Source of the DNA: Gammaproteobacteria bacterium
GTDB taxonomy: Bacteria > Pseudomonadota > Gammaproteobacteria > Steroidobacterales > GCA-2729495
Direction of reading: 5' to 3'
Assembly (NCBI GenBank): GCA_016874095.1
Contig: VGVH01000024.1
Coordinates: 1 to 37,771 of the forward strand
Length of the DNA: 37,771 nucleotides
The position numbers were made by a program, and so were the translations under genes. Within the stretch, counting starts at the first letter, position 1; each line of letters opens with the position of its first letter. The notes beneath the pieces are model-generated. The model saw nothing but the letters and a program-made list of their open reading frames with translations. It was not told the origin of the DNA and did no database searches. Positions 3,128 to 14,023 of this stretch are shown here, in pieces.

Positions 3128-4330
3128 TCACTCCGCGCCGACGGCGCGGCGCGCGATGAGACCATCGATCTCACCCGCCGAGTAGCCCGCCTCGGCGAGC
3201 ACCTCGCGCGTGTGTTGTCCGGCCCGCGGCACGTCACGGTGGATGCCGAAACGCCGTCCGCCCATCTCGAGCGGCAGGGCCGGCAGCCGCGTCTTCGTGC
3301 CACGGCGCTCGCCGTCCGTGACGGTGACCGGCAGCAGGCCGCCACCGGCGGCGAGATGCGGGTCGTCGAACAGCTGCTCGGGCCTGGCGATCGGCGCGAA
3401 CGGCAGCCCGGTCTGCTCGAGCTTGTCCATGAGCTGCTGCTTCGTGAATCGCAGGAACGTCTCGCGGATCACCGGCAGGATGCGGTCCTTGTGGATGACG
3501 CGATCGTTGTTGGTATCGAGCGAGCGGTCCGCCGCGAATTCACGCAGATCGAATGCCTCGCACAGCAGCTTCCACTGCTTGTCGCTGACAACACCGACGA
3601 AGACCTGCTCGCCGTCCGCCGTGTCGAACACCTGGTAGATCGCCCAGGCGGAAACCCGCACCGGCATCGGCGCAGCGGCCTTGCCGGTCACGGCGTACTG
3701 CGCCATGTGCTGGCCGACCAGGAACACGGTGCTCTCGTACAGCGACGCGACGACGTACTGGCCCTTGCCGGTCTGCTGGCGCTGGAAAAGCGCGGCGATG
3801 ACGCCGAGCGCGCCGAACATCCCGCCCTGGACATCGATGACCGAGGTTCCGGCGCGCAGGGGCTTGCCCGGCGGCCCGGTCATGTACGCCAGCCCGCCCA
3901 TCATCTGCGCCACTTCGTCGAGCGCCGTGCGCTCCTCGTACGGCCCGGGCAGGAAGCCCTTCTCGGAGCAGTAGATCAGCCGGGCGTTGCGCGCACTCAA
4001 GGCGTCGTAGCCGAGTCCCAGCCGGTCCATGGTGCCCGGACGGAAATTCTCGATCACGACATCGGCCCGATCGGTCAGTCGCAGCACCGCGGCGGTCCCC
4101 TCCGCCGACTTGAGATCGACGCAGAAGCTGCGCTTGTTGCGGTTGTACATCGGGAAGTAACCCGCACCGGAACCGGGCAGCCTGCGCGTGCTGTCACCCT
4201 CGACCGGCTCGATCCGGATCACGTCGGCACCGAGATCCGCGAGCATCAGGCCGGCGGCCGGCCCCATGACCATGTGCGTGAATTCGATGACACGCACGCC
4301 CGCCAGGGGCAGCTGCTGCTCTGAAGCCAT
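3128..4330 (-). CDS. Class III (CaiB/BaiF) CoA-transferase, probably citramalate/itaconate type
   Basis: The 400-residue length and the N-terminal ADLGADVIRIEP and ENFRPGTMDRLGLGYDAL blocks are those of family III CoA-transferases. Asp166 in GTSVIDVQGG aligns with the aspartate that forms the acyl-anhydride in formyl-CoA transferase (Asp169). The enzyme would move CoA from a donor such as succinyl-CoA to a dicarboxylate in the cytoplasm. It is divergent from a citramalyl-CoA-lyase-like gene. In Chloroflexus, succinyl-CoA:D-citramalate CoA-transferase and citramalyl-CoA lyase are cotranscribed, so citramalate, itaconate or malate are the first candidates; the specificity is inference. The chosen ATG at 4330 has a GAGGA ribosome-binding site 5 nt upstream and begins the family N-terminus. 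The open frame extends further, but through the divergent promoter region. Confidence 0.88.
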   Translation of the reverse strand: MASEQQLPLAGVRVIEFTHMVMGPAAGLMLADLGADVIRIEPVEGDSTRRLPGSGAGYFPMYNRNKRSFCVDLKSAEGTAAVLRLTDRADVVIENFRPGTMDRLGLGYDALSARNARLIYCSEKGFLPGPYEERTALDEVAQMMGGLAYMTGPPGKPLRAGTSVIDVQGGMFGALGVIAALFQRQQTGKGQYVVASLYESTVFLVGQHMAQYAVTGKAAAPMPVRVSAWAIYQVFDTADGEQVFVGVVSDKQWKLLCEAFDLREFAADRSLDTNNDRVIHKDRILPVIRETFLRFTKQQLMDKLEQTGLPFAPIARPEQLFDDPHLAAGGGLLPVTVTDGERRGTKTRLPALPLEMGGRRFGIHRDVPRAGQHTREVLAEAGYSAGEIDGLIARRAVGAE

Positions 4331-4453
4331 GGATGTCCTCGTGAGGGGATTATGTCGGTATCCGCCGGCGCGCGAATTATCCACCACGCCGCCCCCATAT
4401 AGAATATGCAGCCCCGCCGGCATCGGCCTGCGGCACCCCGGAAGGAAGCGCAC
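4331..4453. promoter_or_regulatory. Divergent intergenic region of the CoA-transferase and lyase genes
   Basis: This 123 bp gap separates two divergent genes and is AT-richer in its middle. For the plus-strand lyase gene, TAGAAT at 4400-4405 is a plausible -10, with TTATCC at 4377-4382 as a weak -35 at 17 nt spacing. A strong GGAAGGAAG ribosome-binding site follows near 4440-4448. For the minus-strand gene only the GAGGA ribosome-binding site at 4336-4340 is clear. No inverted-repeat operator was recognised and no regulator gene is adjacent. Confidence 0.45.
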
Positions 4454-5413
4454 ATGGCAGCGGGCAACGACATCGACGTGCTGGTGAGCGAAGTAGGCCC
4501 CCGCGATGGCCTGCAGAGCATCAAGTCCATCATGCCCACCGTGGCGAAAAAGGCCTGGATCGCGGCCGAGGCAGCGGCGGGGGTGCGCGAGATCGAGGTC
4601 TGCTCCTTCGTGCCCGCGAAGATCCTGCCGCAGATGGCGGACGCGGAGGAAGTGGTGCGCTACGCCTGCACGATTCCCGGCCTGACGGTTCTCGCGCTGG
4701 TGCCGAACTTCCGCGGCGCCGAGAACGCGATCGCGGCGGGAGCCCACAAGATCGCCCTCCCCCTGTCGGCAAGCGAGACCCACAGCAAGGCCAACCTGCG
4801 GAAGTCCCACGCAGAGGTGCTCGACGAGGTGCGGCGCATCGCTGCGGTCCTGAAGGCGATGCCCGCCGAGCGCCGGCCCGGCTTCGAGGGCAACGTGGCA
4901 ACCGCCTTCGGCTGCACGCTCGAGGGCGCCGTGTCCGCCGACAAGGTGGTGGAACTCGCCGCCGCGCTGATGGCGGCCGGCGTCGACGAGGTGGGCCTGT
5001 CCGACACGACCGGCTACGCAAACCCCGCGCAGCTGCGCTCACTCATCCGCCGCGTGAAATCCGCGATCGGCAGCGACAAGCTGTCGGGCGTGCACCTGCA
5101 CAACACGCGCGGCCTCGGCCTAGCCAACGCGCTGGCCGCGCTCGAGGAAGGCGTGACGACACTCGACAGCTCGCTCGGCGGCCTTGGCGGCTGCCCCTAC
5201 GCGCCCGGCGCGAGCGGCAACATCGTCACCGAGGACCTCGTGTTCATGCTCGATGCCATGGGCCTGAAGACCGGCATCGACATCGAAAAGTTGCTCGCCG
5301 TCCGGCAGATCCTGCGCGAGGCGCTGCCGAACGACGAGCTGTATGGCTTCACACCGGACGCCGGCCTGCCGAAGGGCTATTCGCGCGGCTGGGGCGTTAC
5401 GCGCGCCGCCTGA
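4454..5413 (+). CDS. HMG-CoA lyase-family enzyme, probable (R)-citramalyl-CoA lyase
   Basis: The 319-residue protein is a DRE-TIM metallolyase. SEVGPRDGLQS (12-22) supplies the catalytic Arg17 and metal-binding Asp18. HLHNTRG (214-220) supplies two metal histidines, and GGLGGCPYAPGASGN (242-256) contains the mobile-loop Cys247 and Asn256. HMG-CoA lyases usually read HCHDTYG, so HLHNTRG points to the citramalyl-CoA-type branch, in which citramalyl-CoA is cleaved to acetyl-CoA and pyruvate. No methylcrotonyl-CoA carboxylase or isovaleryl-CoA dehydrogenase gene is nearby, which argues against a leucine-degradation role. The divergent class III CoA-transferase would make the CoA ester. The start ATG follows a strong GGAAGGAAG site; an upstream in-frame start at 4406 lies just past the putative -10 and is less likely. 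Confidence 0.85.
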   Translation: MAAGNDIDVLVSEVGPRDGLQSIKSIMPTVAKKAWIAAEAAAGVREIEVCSFVPAKILPQMADAEEVVRYACTIPGLTVLALVPNFRGAENAIAAGAHKIALPLSASETHSKANLRKSHAEVLDEVRRIAAVLKAMPAERRPGFEGNVATAFGCTLEGAVSADKVVELAAALMAAGVDEVGLSDTTGYANPAQLRSLIRRVKSAIGSDKLSGVHLHNTRGLGLANALAALEEGVTTLDSSLGGLGGCPYAPGASGNIVTEDLVFMLDAMGLKTGIDIEKLLAVRQILREALPNDELYGFTPDAGLPKGYSRGWGVTRAA

Positions 5414-5417
5414 CGAC

Positions 5418-6677
5418 TCAGTACTTGAAATTCAGGTCGAGCTGCAGCCGGTCGTAGTCGACCGCGATCCCGTCGTTGGCGTCTTCACCGAATTCGTTGA
5501 AGAAGTACGAGAACGCGACGTTGGTCTTGTCGCTCAGCGCATACGCGCCGCGCAGGACGTGGCCGGAATTGTCGGTGCCGCCACCGCCGAAGTCCGAGTC
5601 GGTCCAGAGACCGAACACCGCGTCGCGCTCGAGGTCCTGGTAGGTGTAGCTCGCCTCCCAGCTGCCCTGCGCCTTCGCGGCGCCGATGGATGCGCCGGCA
5701 GCCCAGCCCGAGTCGAACTCATCGGCATCGCTGTTGGTGACGAAGTCGGCAAAGACGCTGGCGGGCTGCCCCAGGACCTTGAAGCCCAGCTCGGCGAAGA
5801 GCTCGACCATGTCGTAGTCGTTGACGTAGAGACCATCGTCATCGACCGTGTTGCCGAAGAACCGCGGGCTCTGGCCAGGCACGACGAAAAACGCACCCTT
5901 GCCAGCTGAGTTCACCCCGAAGTAACCGGCACCCGCAGTCAACTTTGCGGCGTCACCGAGTGCCAGGCTGGTGCCGATCTGGCCGCCGAAACCGAAGGCC
6001 TCGGTGCCATTGCTGTCGCTCTCGACCCAGGTCCCCAGCAGGTTGGCGAAGAACGGTCCGTTCGCGTACGTCAGCCCGAAGCCTTCGGGGTTCAGGTCGC
6101 CGTCCCAGATCAGGCCGTGCTTGCCCGGCCGCGCGAGCGTGTTCTTGAACTTGCCGCCGACGATGTTGAGTCCTTCGGTCGCCTGCCAGTTGAAATAGGC
6201 CAGGTCGAGGTAGATGTCCTTGCGCGAGCCGCCGCTGCCGATGGTCTGGTTGCTCGACACCGGATCGGCGTCCTGCGCGGTGGCGAGCCCGAAGCCGACT
6301 TCGAGCCCGTCCTGCGGCCTGGCGATGACGGCGGCACGTGCACGGATGCGCATGCGATTGCGCTCGTCGGCGCGGTTTTCCTGGTCGATATTCTCGTAGC
6401 GGAGACGCAGATCGCCGGTGAGCCTCAGGGTATCGGCCCAGGACTCCGGCTCGGGTTCCGGCGTGGCAGCCACCGCAGGCTGCACCGGCTCCGCCGATCC
6501 CGAGCGGGCTCGCTCCGTCGCCAGCTCCTTCTGCAGCGCTTCGACGGTTGCGGTCAGCGCATCGAGCTGCTCTTTGAGCGCCTGGAACTCGGCGTCCGTG
6601 ATCGCGAACGCAGGCAGCGGCGTCGCAAGCAATGCAATGGCAACCCAAGGCGATGCCCAATGTGAAGCCGGGATCAT
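5418..6677 (-). CDS. Putative outer-membrane porin with N-terminal coiled coil
   Basis: The 419-residue product begins with a clear Sec signal peptide ending in TPLPAFA, at about residue 25. A short coiled coil follows (EFQALKEQLDALTATVEAL and onward, about residues 30-57), then a Pro/Glu-rich linker. The rest is a long beta-rich region with alternating aromatic residues and many Gly/Asp/Asn turns. It ends in LQLDLNFKY, whose terminal aromatic residue is typical of beta-barrel insertion signals. This matches the putative porin type rather than classical trimeric porins. Its ATG overlaps the stop of the cytochrome gene (ATGA), so it is the last gene of the five-gene operon. It would let the operon's substrate enter the periplasm. 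The substrate is unknown. Confidence 0.8.
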   Translation of the reverse strand: MIPASHWASPWVAIALLATPLPAFAITDAEFQALKEQLDALTATVEALQKELATERARSGSAEPVQPAVAATPEPEPESWADTLRLTGDLRLRYENIDQENRADERNRMRIRARAAVIARPQDGLEVGFGLATAQDADPVSSNQTIGSGGSRKDIYLDLAYFNWQATEGLNIVGGKFKNTLARPGKHGLIWDGDLNPEGFGLTYANGPFFANLLGTWVESDSNGTEAFGFGGQIGTSLALGDAAKLTAGAGYFGVNSAGKGAFFVVPGQSPRFFGNTVDDDGLYVNDYDMVELFAELGFKVLGQPASVFADFVTNSDADEFDSGWAAGASIGAAKAQGSWEASYTYQDLERDAVFGLWTDSDFGGGGTDNSGHVLRGAYALSDKTNVAFSYFFNEFGEDANDGIAVDYDRLQLDLNFKY

Positions 6678-7213
6678 GGGGCCCCCTGCTCGGCTGCCGG
6701 CTTCGCCGACTCCGCCTGGATGAAAGCGATGATGTCGGCACGGTCCTGGGGATTCTGGATGCCGACGAAGACCATCTTGTTGCCCGGCAGGAACTGGCTC
6801 GGGCGGGTGAGCCAGGCGTCGATCTGCTCGGCGGACCAGGTGATGCCGGAGTTCTGCACGGCCTCGGAATAGGCGAAACCGGCGATGCTGCCGGCCGCCC
6901 GGCCCAGCACGCCATAGAGCGTCGGGCCGATCTTCCCGGACTCGGCTTCCGGCACGAGGCTGTGGCAGGCGCGGCACTGCAGGTAGAGCACCTTGCCCTT
7001 GTTCAGGTCAGCCGCGGCCAGCATCGCCTGCAGTTGCGGATCCGGCGCGAGCTGTGCCGTTGCGCCCCCTTCGACGGGCGCGGCGGCGGGCTCCACGGGC
7101 GCGGCGGGTTCGGCCGCAGGTGCCGCGGCATCGGGAGTGGCCGGCGACTCTGCGCCACCGCAGGCGGCAAGAAACAGCGCGCAGGCGACAGCAAGGGCTC
7201 TCAGGCAAGGCAT
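6674..7213 (-). CDS. Lipoprotein c-type cytochrome (class I)
   Basis: This 179-residue protein has a lipoprotein signal with LAAC and a likely lipidated Cys18. An Ala/Pro/Glu-rich tether follows (about 21-58), then a single haem domain. The haem site is CRACH at 80-84, and Met147 in GNKMVFVG is the likely distal axial ligand, as in mitochondrial-type class I cytochromes. It should be anchored to a membrane facing the periplasm and carry single electrons. It lies 19 nt after the IorA-like [2Fe-2S] gene, the usual position of the electron acceptor in IorAB-type molybdenum hydroxylase clusters, although the molybdenum subunit is missing here. Its TGA overlaps the porin start by 4 nt. Confidence 0.9.
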   Translation of the reverse strand: MPCLRALAVACALFLAACGGAESPATPDAAAPAAEPAAPVEPAAAPVEGGATAQLAPDPQLQAMLAAADLNKGKVLYLQCRACHSLVPEAESGKIGPTLYGVLGRAAGSIAGFAYSEAVQNSGITWSAEQIDAWLTRPSQFLPGNKMVFVGIQNPQDRADIIAFIQAESAKPAAEQGAP

Positions 7214-7232
7214 GGTGTCATCCGTAGGGAAA

Positions 7233-7709
7233 TCAGGCAGTAATGTCGGATTGATCGCGACGCAGCTGAGCAGCGCGATGGATCGCGCGACGGATCCGCG
7301 GATAGGTGCCGCAGCGGCAGATGTTCGTGATCGACTGGTTGATCGCCGCGTCGTCGGGCTGCGGGTTCGACTCCAGGAACGCAGCCACCGCCATGATCAT
7401 GCCCGGCTGGCAGTACCCGCACTGCGGCACCTGCTCCTCGATCCACGCCTGCTGCACGGGATGCAGGTTCTCGAGCGTGCCCATGCCTTCGATCGTGGTG
7501 ATTTGCCGGCCTTCCACGCCGGACACCGGCACGACGCAGGAGCGCGCCGCCGCTCCGTCGATGTGCACGGTGCAGGCACCGCAGAGCGCCATGCCGCAGC
7601 CGTACTTCGTGCCGGTGAAACCGAGCACGTCGCGCAGCACCCAGAGGAGCGGCATGTCGCCGGGTACATCGGCACTGACTTCGGTGCCGTTCAGGACGAA
7701 TCTGGCCAT
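7233..7709 (-). CDS. IorA-type [2Fe-2S] subunit of a molybdenum hydroxylase
   Basis: This is the small electron-transfer subunit of the xanthine oxidase family (isoquinoline 1-oxidoreductase alpha type), 158 residues as expected. The N-terminal plant-type cluster uses Cys38, Cys43, Cys46 and Cys58 (GCGMALCGAC and SC). The C-terminal four-helix cluster uses Cys97, Cys100, Cys131 and Cys133 (CGYCQPGM and CRCGTY). Gln101 after CGYC is the position that contacts the molybdopterin in related enzymes. There is no signal peptide; such subunits normally cross the membrane bound to a Tat-exported large subunit. No large IorB-type subunit is encoded next to it or elsewhere in the window, which is unusual. 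The neighbours are two DUF1838 genes upstream and a cytochrome c downstream. Confidence 0.9.
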   Translation of the reverse strand: MARFVLNGTEVSADVPGDMPLLWVLRDVLGFTGTKYGCGMALCGACTVHIDGAAARSCVVPVSGVEGRQITTIEGMGTLENLHPVQQAWIEEQVPQCGYCQPGMIMAVAAFLESNPQPDDAAINQSITNICRCGTYPRIRRAIHRAAQLRRDQSDITA

Positions 7710-7742
7710 GGCGCGCAGTGTAGCCGCAGCAGCCCCTGGACG

Positions 7743-8720
7743 TCAGGGCTTCGCGGGCTTTGGCTGGTTCTCCCGCATGTAGACGCTGTAGCTCGAGTCG
7801 TTCGGGCTGCCCCAGGTCTCGGGCCCGGGAGCCTGGAAATACTCCGGATAGCCTTTCTCGGTACGCTCGCGCAACGCCTTCGGCAGCCTCTCGGGCGTGC
7901 CCGTGCGATTCATCATCGTGCGGTAGAACAGGTGCCCCGGCGCCTGCCCCTGCAGCATCCACGGCATCCACGGGCCGATCCGGGTCCAGGTCCCGACGTA
8001 GTCGCAGGCCGTGCGATCCGGGTCCTCGAGTTCCGCCAGCGTGGTGAAGCGATGGAACATCTCGCTGATCCGCAAGGTCGTGCCGGCGGACTCGCGCGGC
8101 CACTTGTCCGGCTGCATCGGGCTCGGAAACGCCGTGTGCACCTCGAACAGCGAGAAGGCCTTGTCACCCTGCAGCTCCCACGGAGGGCTGAACGGTACCT
8201 CCACCATGGTGCCGTCGAAATCCATTTTCATGACCGGTGCGATTTCGGCGTTCACGACCAGGTTGTGTATCGGCTTGACCTCGACGGTTTCGCCGGTGAA
8301 CGGATTCGTCCACTCGTCGATGAACTGCTGCGTCCGCGGATCCTTGTAGAAGGCGATTTCGCGGTTGAACATGCGGTAACTGCCGTCGCTCTGCGCCTCG
8401 ACCCGCAGGACGCCGAAGCCCTCGACTCCGTAGAGCGGCATGAGTGGCTTGTCGGGCGTGGTGACCGCGAACACCGTGCCGCCGAACCAGCCCGTAGTCT
8501 CGACCGTGGGATCGAGATCGCCGGTCAGCTTGATGAAGGCCCGCAGGTTCTCCGCGGGGTCCTTGAAGTTGACGGGCACGCGCTTCGCCGACGGCCCGGG
8601 CGCAGCGGGCTTTTCCGCCGGCGCGCATCCCGCCAGTGCCACGGCAGCACCGGCCCCGAAAAAGGTCTTGAGGGCCTGGCGCCGGTCGGCCATCGCTGCC
8701 AGCAGACTGCTTTGCCACAT
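7743..8720 (-). CDS. DUF1838 protein, predicted Tat-exported lipoprotein
   Basis: The function is unknown. The 325-residue protein resembles its upstream neighbour in shared blocks: DPAENLRAF, GWFGGTVFAV, FYKDPRTQQFIDEWTNPFTG, and a later PGHLF followed by LPKALRERTEKGYPEYF. I assign both to the DUF1838 family from memory of its pattern. The N-terminus has DRRQALKTFF, a twin-arginine-like motif, followed by an Ala/Gly-rich stretch and LAGC (Cys32), so a Tat-dependent lipoprotein is likely. An in-frame ATG at 8693 would give a shorter leader that still contains DRR. It lies 26 nt after the first DUF1838 gene and 33 nt before the IorA-like gene. The two copies have diverged strongly, which suggests different roles or a heteromer. 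Confidence 0.75.
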   Translation of the reverse strand: MWQSSLLAAMADRRQALKTFFGAGAAVALAGCAPAEKPAAPGPSAKRVPVNFKDPAENLRAFIKLTGDLDPTVETTGWFGGTVFAVTTPDKPLMPLYGVEGFGVLRVEAQSDGSYRMFNREIAFYKDPRTQQFIDEWTNPFTGETVEVKPIHNLVVNAEIAPVMKMDFDGTMVEVPFSPPWELQGDKAFSLFEVHTAFPSPMQPDKWPRESAGTTLRISEMFHRFTTLAELEDPDRTACDYVGTWTRIGPWMPWMLQGQAPGHLFYRTMMNRTGTPERLPKALRERTEKGYPEYFQAPGPETWGSPNDSSYSVYMRENQPKPAKP

Positions 8721-8746
8721 GTTGCGTGCTCCCCTGCCTTCGGCAG

Positions 8747-9610
8747 TCAATTCATCGAACCTGGTATCGCGCGCTGCTGCGCCGGGTTCGCCGAGAGCAG
8801 CTGCGGATACTCCTTCTCGGCGCGGGCGCGGTACTCGCGCGGCAGATCGTCGATCGAGCGCAGCTTCGCGCCCGAGGCATGCCAGACGAGGTGGCCGGGC
8901 CGCTCGCCCATGTCCATCCACTTCAGCCAGGGCATGAACACCGTCGAGGCGAACACGACGGGGATGCTGGCGAGACGGTCCTTGCGGAAGTCATTCAGCG
9001 ATGCATGCATGGACTGCTGCTGCCAGCGCGGTGGCGGCATGCCGGGTGGATAGCGCGTGTAGTTGTGCAACCAGACCCGGTCGCGCACGAACGACCAGTC
9101 GAGCACCAGCGGCTCTTCCGGCAGCTTGTCGATGAGCGGCGTGAACCGTATGCCCCGCGTCGAGTAATTGAAACCGCGTCCGGGTCCACCACCCTGGGTT
9201 GCCGCCGGAACCGTGTTGCGCTGCTGCGTGTAGGGATTGTCGAAGGTCGCCAGGAACCCGTTGGTGCGGACGTCGCGAAAGAACGTCACGGTGTTGCCCA
9301 TCAGTTCGTACTCGCCGCCCGGCAGATGACGCAGCCAGTACAGCTCCATGCCCTCGAACCTCACCAGCGGTCGCGGGTGCTCACCCGGCAGCACGCCGAA
9401 GATCGTGCCGTTGTACCACCACGGCACATCGCGTTCCTCGAGGCTGGCGGTCATCCGGGCGAGCGCACGGAGATTGGCCGCGGGATCCCTGAGGTCCGGA
9501 ATCCACGCCGGCAGGTCTCCGTCGATATGGGGCAATGCGTCGGCAGCCGCGACCAGGCCCAGGAGCCCGATGCCCTGCATTGCGCTGCGCCTGGAAATCG
9601 CGTTGGTCAT
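8747..9610 (-). CDS. DUF1838 protein with Tat-type signal
   Basis: This first gene of the minus-strand operon encodes 287 residues from the ATG at 9610. The frame also has a GTG at 9622, but the Tat motif sits better from the ATG: SRRSAMQ at 6-12, then a short hydrophobic stretch. The body has DPAANLRALARMT, WWYNGTIFGV, EGMELYW, FFRDVRTNGFLATFDNPYTQ and a C-terminal block with MGERPGHLVWH, LPREYRARAEKEYPQLL. These align block by block with the next gene, so the pair arose by duplication. It is rich in Trp, Arg and Pro and lacks metal-binding clusters that I can recognise. No enzymatic role is assigned. Unlike its neighbour, it has no lipobox, so it is probably soluble in the periplasm. Confidence 0.75.
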   Translation of the reverse strand: MTNAISRRSAMQGIGLLGLVAAADALPHIDGDLPAWIPDLRDPAANLRALARMTASLEERDVPWWYNGTIFGVLPGEHPRPLVRFEGMELYWLRHLPGGEYELMGNTVTFFRDVRTNGFLATFDNPYTQQRNTVPAATQGGGPGRGFNYSTRGIRFTPLIDKLPEEPLVLDWSFVRDRVWLHNYTRYPPGMPPPRWQQQSMHASLNDFRKDRLASIPVVFASTVFMPWLKWMDMGERPGHLVWHASGAKLRSIDDLPREYRARAEKEYPQLLSANPAQQRAIPGSMN

Positions 9611-9717
9611 GGTGGGCGGCACTCTGCCACAAGGCCCGCCAGTCAGTCACCCGCTCGCACGCCACTTGCGCGGCTGGCAGAATGACCGCCTCGCACGGTA
9701 TCGCCGGAGTAGCTGCC
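9611..9717. promoter_or_regulatory. Divergent promoter region between the DUF1838 operon and the lysine-catabolism operon
   Basis: This 107 bp gap drives the five-gene minus-strand operon and the plus-strand dehydrogenase pair. For the plus strand, CAGAATGACCGCC near 9678 resembles the TAGAATG -10 seen elsewhere in the window, and GGAG at 9706-9709 is a well-placed ribosome-binding site 8 nt before the ATG at 9718. For the minus strand, CAGAGTGCCGCC just before the first gene has a similar look. No clear operator palindrome was found. Confidence 0.4.
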
Positions 9718-10884
9718 ATGCATCGTGTACTCGTTCTCGGCGCCGGCAAGATCGGCTCGCTGATTGCCGGCCTGCTGGCGGAATGCGGCGACTACGAAGT
9801 ACATCTTGCCGACAGCCGGCCCGGTGCCGCGCAGGAAGTCGCCACTGCCCACGGGCTGGCCGCCATCAAGCCGCTGGTGCTTGATGCCACGCAGAAAGGC
9901 GAGCTGCAGCGTTACGCGGAGACGGCGCGCATCGAGGCGCTGGTGTCCGGCCTGCCCTACTACCTGAACGAGGCAGTGGCCGAGGTGGCGCGCGCCATCA
10001 AATGCCATTACTTCGACCTCACCGAGGACGTGAAGGTGGCCACCACGGTGCAGCGCCTGTCGCAGGGTGCCGAGACCGCCTTCGCGCCGCAGTGCGGACT
10101 CGCACCCGGCTTCGTGAGCATCGCGGCCGCGGAGTTGATCCGCCACTTCGACAGCCTGCGCACGGTCAAGCTGCGGGTCGGCGCGCTGCCCCAGCACCCC
10201 AACAACGTCCTCAAGTACTCGCTCACCTGGTCGACCGACGGCCTGATCAACGAGTACGGCAACCCCTGCCTCTCGGTTGTCGACGGGAAGACCCGCGACG
10301 TCCTGCCGCTCGAGGGCCTGGAGGAAATCGAAATCGACGGGCAGTTGTACGAGGCCTTCAACACCTCCGGCGGCCTCGGCTCGCTCGCGGAAAGCTTCAG
10401 TGCCGGCGTCGAGAGCATGGACTACAAGACCATCCGCTACCCCGGCCATTGCACGCAGATGAAGCTGCTCATGAACGGGCTGAAGCTCAATCACGACCGC
10501 GGCACGCTGAAGCGCGTGCTGGAGAACGCCGTGCCGCAGACCCTGCAGGACGTCGTCATCATCTATACGGCGGTCACCGGGCTGCAGGCTGGCGAGTTGC
10601 GCGAGGAGAACTACGTCAACAAGGTCTATCCGCAGGTCATTTCCGGGCGCCTGTGGTCCGCGATCCAGGTGACCACGGCGGCAGGCGTCTGCGCGGTGCT
10701 TGATCTCGTGTGCCGCTCGCCGGACCAGTACCGCGGCTTCGTGCGGCAGGAGCAGTTCCCGCTGCCGCAGGTCCTCGCCAACCGCTTCGGCCGCTACTTC
10801 AGCGAGCAATCGAGCAAGGATGTGTCGCTGCGGCTTATAGCCGCCGGCAAGACCGGCGAGCAGCGCGCGAAAGGCAGGGGCTGA
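9718..10884 (+). CDS. Saccharopine dehydrogenase / lysine 6-dehydrogenase-like oxidoreductase
   Basis: The 388-residue protein starts with an NAD(P)-binding Rossmann motif, VLGAGKIGS at 5-13. It continues with the saccharopine dehydrogenase signature region: a YYLNEAVAEVA block, HYFDLTED, and QCGLAPGFVS near residue 120-130. It would oxidatively deaminate a lysine-derived substrate (saccharopine or lysine itself) to release 2-aminoadipate 6-semialdehyde. The next gene, 3 nt downstream, encodes an ALDH7-type dehydrogenase that oxidises exactly that semialdehyde, so the pair makes sense as lysine catabolism. No lysine-ketoglutarate reductase domain is fused or adjacent, so direct lysine dehydrogenation or a remote partner is needed. 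The ATG has a GGAG site 8 nt upstream. Confidence 0.85.
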   Translation: MHRVLVLGAGKIGSLIAGLLAECGDYEVHLADSRPGAAQEVATAHGLAAIKPLVLDATQKGELQRYAETARIEALVSGLPYYLNEAVAEVARAIKCHYFDLTEDVKVATTVQRLSQGAETAFAPQCGLAPGFVSIAAAELIRHFDSLRTVKLRVGALPQHPNNVLKYSLTWSTDGLINEYGNPCLSVVDGKTRDVLPLEGLEEIEIDGQLYEAFNTSGGLGSLAESFSAGVESMDYKTIRYPGHCTQMKLLMNGLKLNHDRGTLKRVLENAVPQTLQDVVIIYTAVTGLQAGELREENYVNKVYPQVISGRLWSAIQVTTAAGVCAVLDLVCRSPDQYRGFVRQEQFPLPQVLANRFGRYFSEQSSKDVSLRLIAAGKTGEQRAKGRG

Positions 10885-10887
10885 AAC

Positions 10888-12405
10888 ATGAGCGCCATCC
10901 CCGCATCCCTCGGACTGCGAAACCGCAACCCCGGCGTCTCCTCCGGCGGCCGCTGGCACGCCTCGGGCAAGGCGAAGGCGTTCGCCTCGCTGAACCCCGC
11001 GACGAACGAGCCGCTCGGCACGGTGACGGCAGCAAGCGCGCGGGACTACGAGCAGGTGATCCGCAACTCGACCGCTGCGTTCCGGGCCTGGCGCGAAGTG
11101 CCGGCACCGCGCCGTGGCGAAGCGGTGCGGCGGATCGCCGACGCTTTGCGCGGGCACAAGGACGCGCTTGGCACGCTGGTCAGCCTCGAAGCAGGCAAGA
11201 TCAAGGCAGAGGGCGACGGCGAAGTGCAGGAGATGATCGACATCGCCGACTTCGCCGTGGGACTCTCGCGCCAGCTCTACGGGCTGACGATGCCGTCGGA
11301 GCGACCGAGCCACCGCCTCTACGAACAGTGGCAGCCGCTCGGCGTGGTCGGGATCATCAGCGCCTTCAACTTCCCCGTCGCCGTGTGGTCCTGGAATGCG
11401 TTCATCGCTGCCGTCTGCGGCAACGCGAGCGTCTGGAAGCCGTCGCCCAAGACGCCCCTCTGCAGCATCGCGGTGCAGAACATCTGCAACCGGACGCTGG
11501 CCGCAGGCGGCTACCCGCCGATCTTTTCGCTGTTCAACACGACCGACAACCGGCTCGCCGAGCGGTTCGTCGACGACCACCGGGTCGATCTCGTCTCGTT
11601 CACGGGCTCGACGGCCGTCGGCCGCAAGGTCGCGGAACGAGTCGCCGCGCGACTCGGCAAGTACCTGCTCGAGCTCGGCGGCAACAACGCGATCATCATC
11701 GACGAGCACGCGAACCTCGACCTGGCAGTGCCTGCCATCCTGTTCGGCGCGGTCGGCACCGCCGGGCAGCGCTGCACGACGACGCGGCGCCTGCTGGTGC
11801 ACCCGAAGCTGGTCAAGGAGCTCACCCGCCGCCTCGTGGCAGCCTATCAACAGGTGCCGATCGGCAATCCGCTGCGCAAAGGCACGCTCATGGGCCCGCT
11901 CATCGATGAAGCGGCGGTCGAACGCTACCTCGCCACGGTTCGCGACGTGCGCCGTCTCGGCGGCGAGATCCTCTGCGGCGGCGAGCGGCTGAAGCGTGGC
12001 GGCAATTTCGTCAAGCCGACCATCGTGATGGCGAAGGCGAACTGGGCGCCGGTGCAGCAGGAGTGTTTCGCGCCGATCCTCTACGTGATCCCGACGAAGA
12101 ACCTGGACGAAGCCATCGCCGTGCAGAACGGCGTGCCGCAGGGCCTGTCATCGGCGATCTTCACCGACCGCCTGCAGCATGCCGAGCGTTTCCTGTCGGC
12201 CGCGGGCAGCGACTGCGGGATCGCGAACGTGAACATCGGCACCTCGGGCGCCGAGATCGGCGGTGCATTCGGCGGCGAGAAGGAAACCGGCGGCGGTCGC
12301 GAGGCGGGCTCCGATTCCTGGAAGGCCTACATGCGGCGCCAGACGGTGACCATCAACTGGGGCAACGACCTGCCGCTTGCGCAGGGCATCGACTTCTCCG
12401 TCTGA
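10888..12405 (+). CDS. ALDH7-type aldehyde dehydrogenase, probable 2-aminoadipate 6-semialdehyde dehydrogenase
   Basis: This is a 505-residue NAD(P)-dependent aldehyde dehydrogenase. Active-site residues are visible: Asn161 in SAFNFP, Glu262 in LELGG and the nucleophile Cys296 in GTAGQRCT. The [10 protein letters not shown] and [10 protein letters not shown] blocks, and the C-terminal [20 protein letters not shown] region, are characteristic of the ALDH7 (antiquitin, AmaB/Pcd) group, which oxidises aminoadipate semialdehyde. It begins 3 nt after the saccharopine dehydrogenase-like gene, so translation is probably coupled. It converges on the FAD oxidase with 9 nt between stops. Betaine aldehyde or other semialdehydes are alternatives, but the neighbour and family group favour lysine catabolism. 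Confidence 0.9.
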
Positions 12406-12414
12406 AGTCGCGCG

Positions 12415-13995
12415 CTAGAGCTGGAGCGCACCGGGGTTCATGATCCCCTGCGGGTCGAGCTGGCGCTTGATCTCGCGGATCGCGCGGGCGGCCGCGGCCT
12501 GCCGGCCTTCCATGTAGGTGTAGCTTTTACCGACCTGCATGTGGATCGCGCCGACTGACGCGAAGATCTTCTGTATTTCCGCGCGCAACTCGCGCACCAG
12601 TGCCCGTCCCTCGGGGTTGGGGCCGTACTCGGGCAGCATCTGCAGGTAATCCTGCGGCAGATAGCGCTTGTGGAAGACGGTCCGGTCGTCTTCCCAGTAG
12701 AACACGGGCTCGTAGAGGAAGCCGTGGGTGTTCACCGCCATGAACATCGCGCCCTTGTCGACCTTGAGGCTTTGCATGCGCCCGGCATGCGCGGCGTACA
12801 ACTGGCCCAGTTTTTCGTGGAATTCATTCATCTTCGAGAACGGCATGATGCCGTGCTGGGGCACCCAGCGCTCGCCGCGCGGGCCGAGAATCGGGTAAAG
12901 CGGAATGAACGGCATCGCGCGAATGACCGTCGGAATGGTATTGGCCGTTTCCTGCCCGTGGCCCTCCATCGCCCGACGCAGCACCGCGAGCTTGCCGTTC
13001 ACCTCGCCCTTCGACACGCCCTCGACGGTGTAGTGAGCCGAGTAGTTGTGGCCCGACAGGAAGCGCTTGCCCGCGGCTGCCATCTTGGCCAGGCGGACCA
13101 GCGCATCGACGGGGTTGCGCGAGGTCTTCGCGACGGCGAGGGCAGCCGCGGTGGCATCCTTCGTGCTGGTCTTGCCGAGCTGGCCCTGCTGCAGCCGCGG
13201 ATCCACGCCGAAGTTGTCCGCCGTGACGTTTTCGCGCGCCGCCGCCGCCATGCCGGCCGCCATCTTCGCGAACGTCTCGAAGCCGAAGGATGCCGCGCCG
13301 AAGAAGGCGGGCTCGCGTATGAGCTTGAGGGATATGCTCGCCTTGATGCCGAGCGCACCCGCGTCGCCGCAGAACAGCCCGGTCAGATCGGGGCCGTACC
13401 AGCGGAAGAACGGCCGGCCGTTCGCGGCCGCATGCGCACCGGTACGCAGGATTTCGCCGTCGGCGAGCACGATCTCGAAGCCGACGATCGCGTCGGCGGA
13501 AATGCCGTAGTTGCCCGAGCCCAGGCTTGCGCTGTTCTGCGAAGCCGAGCCGCCCACCGTCGCCTTGAGGCCGGAGAACGGTCCCCAGAACGAGCTGCGC
13601 AGGCCCTTGGCCTTCAACGCCTGCCACAGGTCGTGCCAGGTCACGCCCGGCTCGACCGTGACATACATGTCCTGCTCGTTGATCTCGAGGATGCGATTCA
13701 TTCGCGACGTGTCGACCAGCAGCGACACCGGCGTGGATGGCAGGTAGCCGTCCGTGTAGGAAGCCCCGCCACCGCGCGCCACCAGCGCGACACCGGCGCC
13801 CGCAGCGATCTTCACGATGCCCTGGACTTCGCCCGCCGATGCCGGACGGACGACGGCGATGGGCAGTTCGCGGGCGTTGTACACGTCCATCGCGTGGAAT
13901 CTGCGCTCGACCTCGTCGGTCAGCACGTGTTCGCGCCCCAGCAGGGTGACGAGTGGTGTGAGGATGTCGTTGCTTACGGTGGGATTCGCGGACAT
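12415..13995 (-). CDS. FAD-linked oxidase/dehydrogenase (PCMH-type)
   Basis: The 526-residue flavoprotein has a PCMH-type FAD domain: VVRPASAGEVQGIVKIA near 48-64, ARGGGASYTDGYLPS at 73-87, ATVGGSASQNSASLGSGNYG at 145-164 and CGDAGALGI at 209-217. A C-terminal cap domain ends in LDPQGIMNPGALQL, the classic tail of glycolate/D-lactate dehydrogenase and 4-cresol/vanillyl-alcohol oxidase relatives. It would oxidise a hydroxyacid or phenolic alcohol; the substrate cannot be read here. A hydroxyacid step in lysine catabolism is possible because it converges with that operon, but the strands differ. There is no signal peptide. I chose the ATG at 13995; the alternative at 14025 overlaps a likely -10. 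Confidence 0.82.
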   Translation of the reverse strand: MSANPTVSNDILTPLVTLLGREHVLTDEVERRFHAMDVYNARELPIAVVRPASAGEVQGIVKIAAGAGVALVARGGGASYTDGYLPSTPVSLLVDTSRMNRILEINEQDMYVTVEPGVTWHDLWQALKAKGLRSSFWGPFSGLKATVGGSASQNSASLGSGNYGISADAIVGFEIVLADGEILRTGAHAAANGRPFFRWYGPDLTGLFCGDAGALGIKASISLKLIREPAFFGAASFGFETFAKMAAGMAAAARENVTADNFGVDPRLQQGQLGKTSTKDATAAALAVAKTSRNPVDALVRLAKMAAAGKRFLSGHNYSAHYTVEGVSKGEVNGKLAVLRRAMEGHGQETANTIPTVIRAMPFIPLYPILGPRGERWVPQHGIMPFSKMNEFHEKLGQLYAAHAGRMQSLKVDKGAMFMAVNTHGFLYEPVFYWEDDRTVFHKRYLPQDYLQMLPEYGPNPEGRALVRELRAEIQKIFASVGAIHMQVGKSYTYMEGRQAAAARAIREIKRQLDPQGIMNPGALQL

Positions 13996-14023
13996 GGTGT
14001 TATTCCAGGAAACGGCAGTCGGC

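Follow-up and report, generated by a model that had tools for sequence, protein, structure and literature searches.

Among the described systems with which the locus considered here can be compared are two three-gene clusters of Pseudomonas. As presented in the parts of two studies devoted to them, PS417_10890/10885/10880 encode the deoxyribose dehydrogenase of P. simiae and PP_3621-3623 the proposed vanillin dehydrogenase of P. putida (PMC6365646, PMC7188995). The clusters matter for growth on deoxyribose and vanillin, respectively, and the authors suspect a periplasmic oxidation with cytochrome c as a possible electron acceptor (PMC6365646). Here we examine a locus encoding an IorA-type [2Fe-2S] small subunit, a cytochrome c and proteins of the DUF1838 family. 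It lies in a window of 37,771 nucleotides (nt) that is one whole contig (VGVH01000024.1, our C24) of the 2.8-Mb, 75-contig genome of an uncultured gammaproteobacterium (G000). The source genome was compared with the family that the tool used here designates f1 (40 genomes) and with the other families of its order. The IorA and cytochrome c genes stay together in f1, while the IorB-type molybdenum subunits are encoded elsewhere. We consider it probable that a single IorA–cytochrome set is shared by these scattered IorB, with DUF1838 as an accessory partner.

The locus consists of open frames on the minus strand: D1, a DUF1838 gene (8747-9622; an ATG start at 9610 is also possible), D2, a second DUF1838 gene (7743-8720), IorA (7233-7709), a cytochrome c (6674-7213) and an outer-membrane porin (5418-6677). 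Gaps of 26 nt (D1/D2), 33 nt (D2/IorA) and 19 nt (IorA/cytochrome c) separate the first four, and the cytochrome c and porin genes overlap by 4 nt. Pfam supports each family assignment, with PF08894 at 75 bits for D1 and 155.7 bits for D2 (cut-off 25), Fer2_2 at 103.6 and Fer2 at 34.4 for IorA, Cytochrom_C at 27.6 (cut-off 21.3) and Porin_5 at 128.8. Judged by eye, D1 and D2 begin with two arginines (RR) followed by a hydrophobic stretch, as in signals for twin-arginine translocation (Tat); a lipobox-like LAGC is present in D2 as well. The cytochrome appears to be a mono-haem lipoprotein with one CxxCH and a lipobox-like LAAC (both by eye), whereas IorA, assigned by Pfam and homology, has no evident signal peptide. 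The first-pass annotation of this DNA had placed on a single strand, with gaps of 19-33 nt or a 4-nt overlap, the same set of two Tat-like DUF1838 proteins, an IorA-type protein, a lipoprotein cytochrome c and a porin; the families and the spacing, recalculated from the coordinates, agree, and its observation on the five genes is confirmed. It overlooked a sixth gene, for an FAD (flavin adenine dinucleotide)-linked oxidase (GlcD/VAO-like, FAD_binding_4; 12415-13998, minus strand) without an evident signal peptide, which is part of the same locus in relatives and in the window is split from D1 by two plus-strand genes.

The core of the locus is widely conserved, beyond what chance would produce. 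Applying an E-value of at most 1e-62, window-type IorA orthologs were found in 28 of the 40 f1 genomes, always as a single copy, and the cytochrome c gene is directly downstream in 28/28 loci. Both [2Fe-2S] cluster motifs are present in every one of these orthologs, six of which carry CGxCxSG in place of CGxCxPG. That an IorA-type subunit travels with an exported lipoprotein cytochrome c, as the first-pass annotation had proposed, thus holds across genera. The 28 loci were scanned with profiles and several are cut by contig ends, so the counts of the remaining members are lower bounds: on the same strand upstream of IorA, the FAD oxidase is present in at least 19/28 and D1, across genera, in at least 17/28, whereas D2 and a same-strand porin each occur in at least 6/28. 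The conserved order is FAD oxidase, D1, D2, IorA, cytochrome c and porin, of which D1, D2 and the porin are optional. D2 is also found apart from IorA and, like the porin, is no fixed component of the locus. The full set of five recurs in a second genome, G009, and only there and in the window are all five together; in G009, 2.4 kb with an opposite-strand reading frame separates the cytochrome from the porin. This gap was considered as a hiding place for an IorB and rejected, as the frame has no Pfam match and the IorB profile found nothing there. The counterpart of the frame in another locus (L205) gives a Frag1 match below the cut-off.

The molybdenum subunits are found elsewhere in the genome. 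G000 encodes three Fer2_2 proteins, two of which adjoin their own large subunits and lie far from the window IorA in the tree; the third is the window IorA itself, and no other IorA-type gene was found in G000. The five MoCoBD_1 large subunits include three of IorB type without an adjacent IorA, all of which carry RR and a hydrophobic stretch; they are encoded on contigs C9, C10 and C31. In f1, a search for IorB (E at most 1e-90) gave 70 matches, some of them fragments, in 33 of the 40 genomes. The surroundings of all 70 were scanned for IorA, DUF1838 and cytochrome with custom profiles: 13 have an adjacent IorA and 57 do not, although among the 57 several are fragments, and a contig end truncates six on the upstream side (L242, L265, L267, L274, L280, L281) and two on the downstream side (L264, L266). 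Conversely, the profile scan of the 28 IorA locus stretches detected no IorB (0/28 IorA beside IorB). In the other families of the order, IorA lies within 5 kb for 61/83 IorB among the matches listed. The separation in f1 is not an assembly effect because it is seen in closed genomes (G007, G008 and G013); where both genes share a contig, the nearest IorB is 1.07 Mb (G007), 1.11 Mb (G008), 0.33 Mb (G013) or 0.29 Mb (G017) from IorA.

Although apart on the chromosome, the two halves occur together. Unpaired IorB are present in 27/28 genomes with window-type IorA versus 4/12 without (Fisher p=5e-5, kinship left uncorrected; p = 7e-6 if G018 is counted as lacking an unpaired IorB), with one to four unpaired IorB per genome alongside one IorA–cytochrome unit. 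Of 50 unpaired IorB scored, after leaving out seven cut ones, 48 carry the RR motif. The surroundings of the unpaired IorB contain a single cytochrome match, which is 1.7 kb off and on the opposite strand.

The first-pass annotation had interpreted the five genes as a periplasmic oxidation module. As a self-contained unit this is not supported: the locus lacks a molybdenum subunit, and those of IorB type are encoded on other contigs. DUF1838 acting on or binding the substrate, as it also proposed, could still hold; as a whole, its interpretation is partly supported. A self-contained operon could still be imagined in which the donor of electrons to IorA is the FAD-linked oxidase, or else a reaction that depends on DUF1838, and IorA passes them to cytochrome c, with no molybdenum subunit involved. 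The frequent FAD oxidase upstream of IorA and the empty IorB scan of the 28 stretches are consistent with this, as are the sequence relatives of the flavoprotein, which include p-cresol methylhydroxylase and vanillyl-alcohol oxidase; p-cresol methylhydroxylase uses a cytochrome c subunit. However, judged by eye, the cytochrome is a lipoprotein but no signal peptide is evident in the FAD oxidase, IorA is most similar to the small subunits of molybdenum hydroxylases, and nearly every genome with window-type IorA also has an unpaired IorB. We regard such an operon as quite improbable.

The reading we prefer is that of a split periplasmic molybdenum hydroxylase, for which the locus encodes the shared electron-output half. 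Lacking an evident export signal, IorA would pair in the cytoplasm with any of several distantly encoded IorB, and the Tat signal of IorB would export the pair. The exported [2Fe-2S] subunit would then hand electrons to the lipoprotein cytochrome c encoded beside IorA. Since the IorB genes lie in catabolic neighbourhoods of their own, a single IorA–cytochrome set would serve several substrate-specific IorB enzymes. DUF1838 proteins, predicted to be Tat-exported and mostly beta, may be accessory periplasmic partners of the split system. The physical pairing of IorA with IorB, the electron flow, the substrates and the accessory role of DUF1838 are what we infer.

The link to DUF1838 does not come from the window alone. 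The family is found with each half of the split system: in addition to D1 beside IorA, a DUF1838 gene immediately precedes an unpaired IorB in the same orientation at 7/57 loci from three genera (G000 C31, G028 C57, G017 C9, G024 C6, G029 C94, G033 C141 and G036 C53), five of them in the single genus g9. On C31 of G000, 11 nt separate the DUF1838 stop from the proposed GTG start of IorB. The PF08894 scores of three of these IorB-linked proteins are 71 (G000), 43.8 (G024) and 47.9 (G029) against the cut-off of 25; the other four were detected by the custom profile, that of G017 by Pfam too. In a tree of DUF1838, from which row L084 was left out, D1 (100/99), D2 (100/96) and all seven IorB-linked proteins (97/92) form separate groups, the last of which is not secure, as two long branches meet there. 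Further, in f13, another family of the order (G064, G075, G095), an IorB gene lies divergent beside IorA–cytochrome c. A pair of DUF1838 genes is also there, the closer one at a distance of 1.5-2.8 kb from IorA, and the IorA of these three genomes falls in one group with the orphan IorA of f1 (support 90/85).

DUF1838 genes are strongly multiplied, with 13 in the 2.8-Mb genome of G000 and 26-39 matches per genome, some genes matching twice, in G064, G075, G095 and G102 of f13. Such abundance suggests a looser view of the neighbourhood, in which the real unit is IorA–cytochrome c, and DUF1838 and the porin are nearby because DUF1838 genes are so frequent. In keeping with this, D2 also occurs away from IorA, D2 and the porin are each seen in few loci, and all five genes are together only twice. 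On the other hand, D1 holds the same position in 17/28 loci across genera, in three genera a different DUF1838 group immediately precedes unpaired IorB, and in f13 DUF1838 is near an IorAB–cytochrome locus. A random neighbour would be a DUF1838 gene in about 0.5% of cases (13 among roughly 2,700 genes, estimated), a figure to be read with the loci being related by descent. A merely loose neighbourhood is, in our view, unlikely.

The AlphaFold models of D2 (mean predicted local distance difference test 89.7) and D1 (81.2) are mostly antiparallel beta, and we read the predicted fold as a barrel. A Foldseek search with both models gave no clear relative among the matches listed. Its weak similarities are to beta proteins from a wide range of families, including photosystem II chain O, LolA, nitrobindin and PagP; for the 50 matches listed per model, examined for a whole-fold match to a solved barrel of lipocalin or nitrobindin type, the template modelling score is at most 0.29 by query and 0.47 by target, with a root-mean-square deviation of at least 8.5. 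A search of the PDB with the D2 sequence returned chance matches only. A ligand-binding or docking role would fit the modelled fold. A more specific proposal is that the subunits are interchangeable, with one IorA/cytochrome c set exported with several alternative IorB, and distinct DUF1838 subfamilies, one at the IorA locus and another at an IorB locus, acting as dedicated periplasmic partners, either substrate carriers or docking and assembly factors. We offer this tentatively, as a possibility on the doubtful side; if true, it would give DUF1838 its first function.

Various observations weigh against the shared use of IorA and cytochrome c with DUF1838 as a partner. With regard to DUF1838, 50/57 unpaired IorB have no DUF1838 gene directly beside them, neither D1 nor D2 is present at the IorA locus of the relatives G002-G007 (the gene immediately before IorA in G002 and G006 is that for the FAD oxidase, with no DUF1838), and G025 (L054) and G030 (L058) retain D1-D2 without window-type IorA. 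Similarly, D2 orthologs occur in G014, G015, G022, G026 and G027 without a match to window-type IorA or IorB. With regard to IorB, the co-occurrence partly reflects shared ancestry, as the genomes without window-type IorA cluster in genera g2, g5, g6 and g7. Unpaired IorB are also found without window-type IorA in G018, G030, G033 and G034; the IorB of G018 is cut at a contig end on its upstream side, G030 has an unpaired IorA from another tree group, and G033 and G034 are both 87% complete. No IorB match accompanies the IorA of G001 (73% complete). G019 and G039 each have a single IorB, which a contig end truncates on the upstream side, so that its pairing is not visible. Finally, GxGE, which we take to be a pattern for the active-site region of IorB, is present in 38/50 unpaired and 8/13 paired IorB; an intact site is therefore not established for every IorB by this crude pattern.

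D2 was also considered as a functional link to IorA in its own right. This was rejected, since in nine loci D2 is apart from IorA among genes that look unrelated by eye. D2 has a cytochrome c gene 1.5-3 kb away in G015 and G022, with 33% identity to that of the window. In G025 the cytochrome c gene about 3 kb from D1-D2 shows 59% identity to that of the window. The D1 of G024 (L137, around 5491-6346) is spread over two frames, which may reflect gene decay or an assembly error. In a collection of 84,980 species genomes, a scan with two short patterns, which can miss relatives, found 30 loci with D1 relatives; all are titled metagenome-assembled and are named gammaproteobacteria or, less exactly, Pseudomonadota or proteobacteria.

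The genes around IorB hint at what the enzymes may oxidize. Near the three IorB of G000 are genes for a tannase-family esterase, a VanA-like Rieske oxygenase and a pyrroloquinoline quinone (PQQ) dehydrogenase. One example of such a neighbourhood runs tannase-like esterase, short-chain dehydrogenase, DUF1838, IorB. A tannase-family esterase and a short-chain dehydrogenase precede IorB in G000 (L087) and G008 (L222), the tannase by Pfam in both and the dehydrogenase by Pfam in L222 only, and several other IorB loci show the same arrangement by eye. From these neighbours, our guess is that the substrates are plant-type aromatic compounds. By analogy with the proposed vanillin dehydrogenase of P. 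putida, aromatic aldehydes would be the best guess. As a separate observation, the short-chain dehydrogenase before IorB starts with a Sec-like signal stretch, judged by eye (L087:1034-4939, L222:8448-11042); an exported short-chain dehydrogenase would be unusual.

Other genes of the window border the locus without being members. A saccharopine-dehydrogenase-like gene (plus strand, frame 9535-10884, likely start near 9718) and an aldehyde-dehydrogenase-like gene (10888-12405, plus strand) form a pair (9718-12405) divergent upstream of D1. The same pair is found in L192, L193, L194, L200 and L201, and was not found in the other D1 loci examined. Downstream of the porin (window 3128-5413) are genes resembling 3-hydroxy-3-methylglutaryl-coenzyme A (HMG-CoA) lyase and the CaiB family. 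As these are shared with the relatives' loci L201 and L211, synteny reaches past the operon.

If the preferred reading is correct, this lineage would have a modular respiratory design, in which several unlinked large subunits are served by a single small subunit and cytochrome. Annotation based on neighbourhood would then wrongly take each piece for an orphan. DUF1838 gains a concrete, testable setting next to each of the two halves of a split molybdoenzyme. In the literature searched, a single paper names it, as ArtU of the aurantimycin cluster, in a table entry that assigns no role (PMC5031334). Among the papers listed on DUF1838, AldFGH, IorA/IorB and orphan molybdenum hydroxylase subunits, none was seen to describe an IorA in shared use.

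Compared with known systems, the locus has much of the IorAB–cytochrome c type, namely a small subunit with two clusters, a Tat-signalled large subunit in the genome and a cytochrome c beside IorA; adjacency of the large and small subunit genes is what it lacks. The closest solved relative of its IorA is the aldehyde dehydrogenase small subunit 8gy3 chain B (E=1.1e-51), presumably from the membrane-bound enzyme of acetic acid bacteria. That small subunit is encoded with the large and cytochrome subunits, unlike at the locus described here. Isoquinoline 1-oxidoreductase, IorAB, has the same types of subunit; however, according to the part of PMC6365646 concerned with it, no cytochrome c gene is near iorB, whereas here the cytochrome always adjoins IorA. 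The Pseudomonas clusters, as far as they are set out in the sections cited at the outset, share the IorA-like [2Fe-2S] protein, the IorB-like molybdenum subunit and the cytochrome c, with a Tat signal noted in P. simiae. The subunits of those IorAB-like enzymes are encoded together (PMC6365646, PMC7188995), the three genes being clustered, while here the FAD oxidase and DUF1838 are the companions of IorA–cytochrome c, and the unpaired IorB, one to four of them, are encoded elsewhere. The electron path itself has already been suggested for the Pseudomonas clusters (PMC6365646); the new element is likely the use of one IorA–cytochrome unit for the one to four unpaired IorB of a genome.

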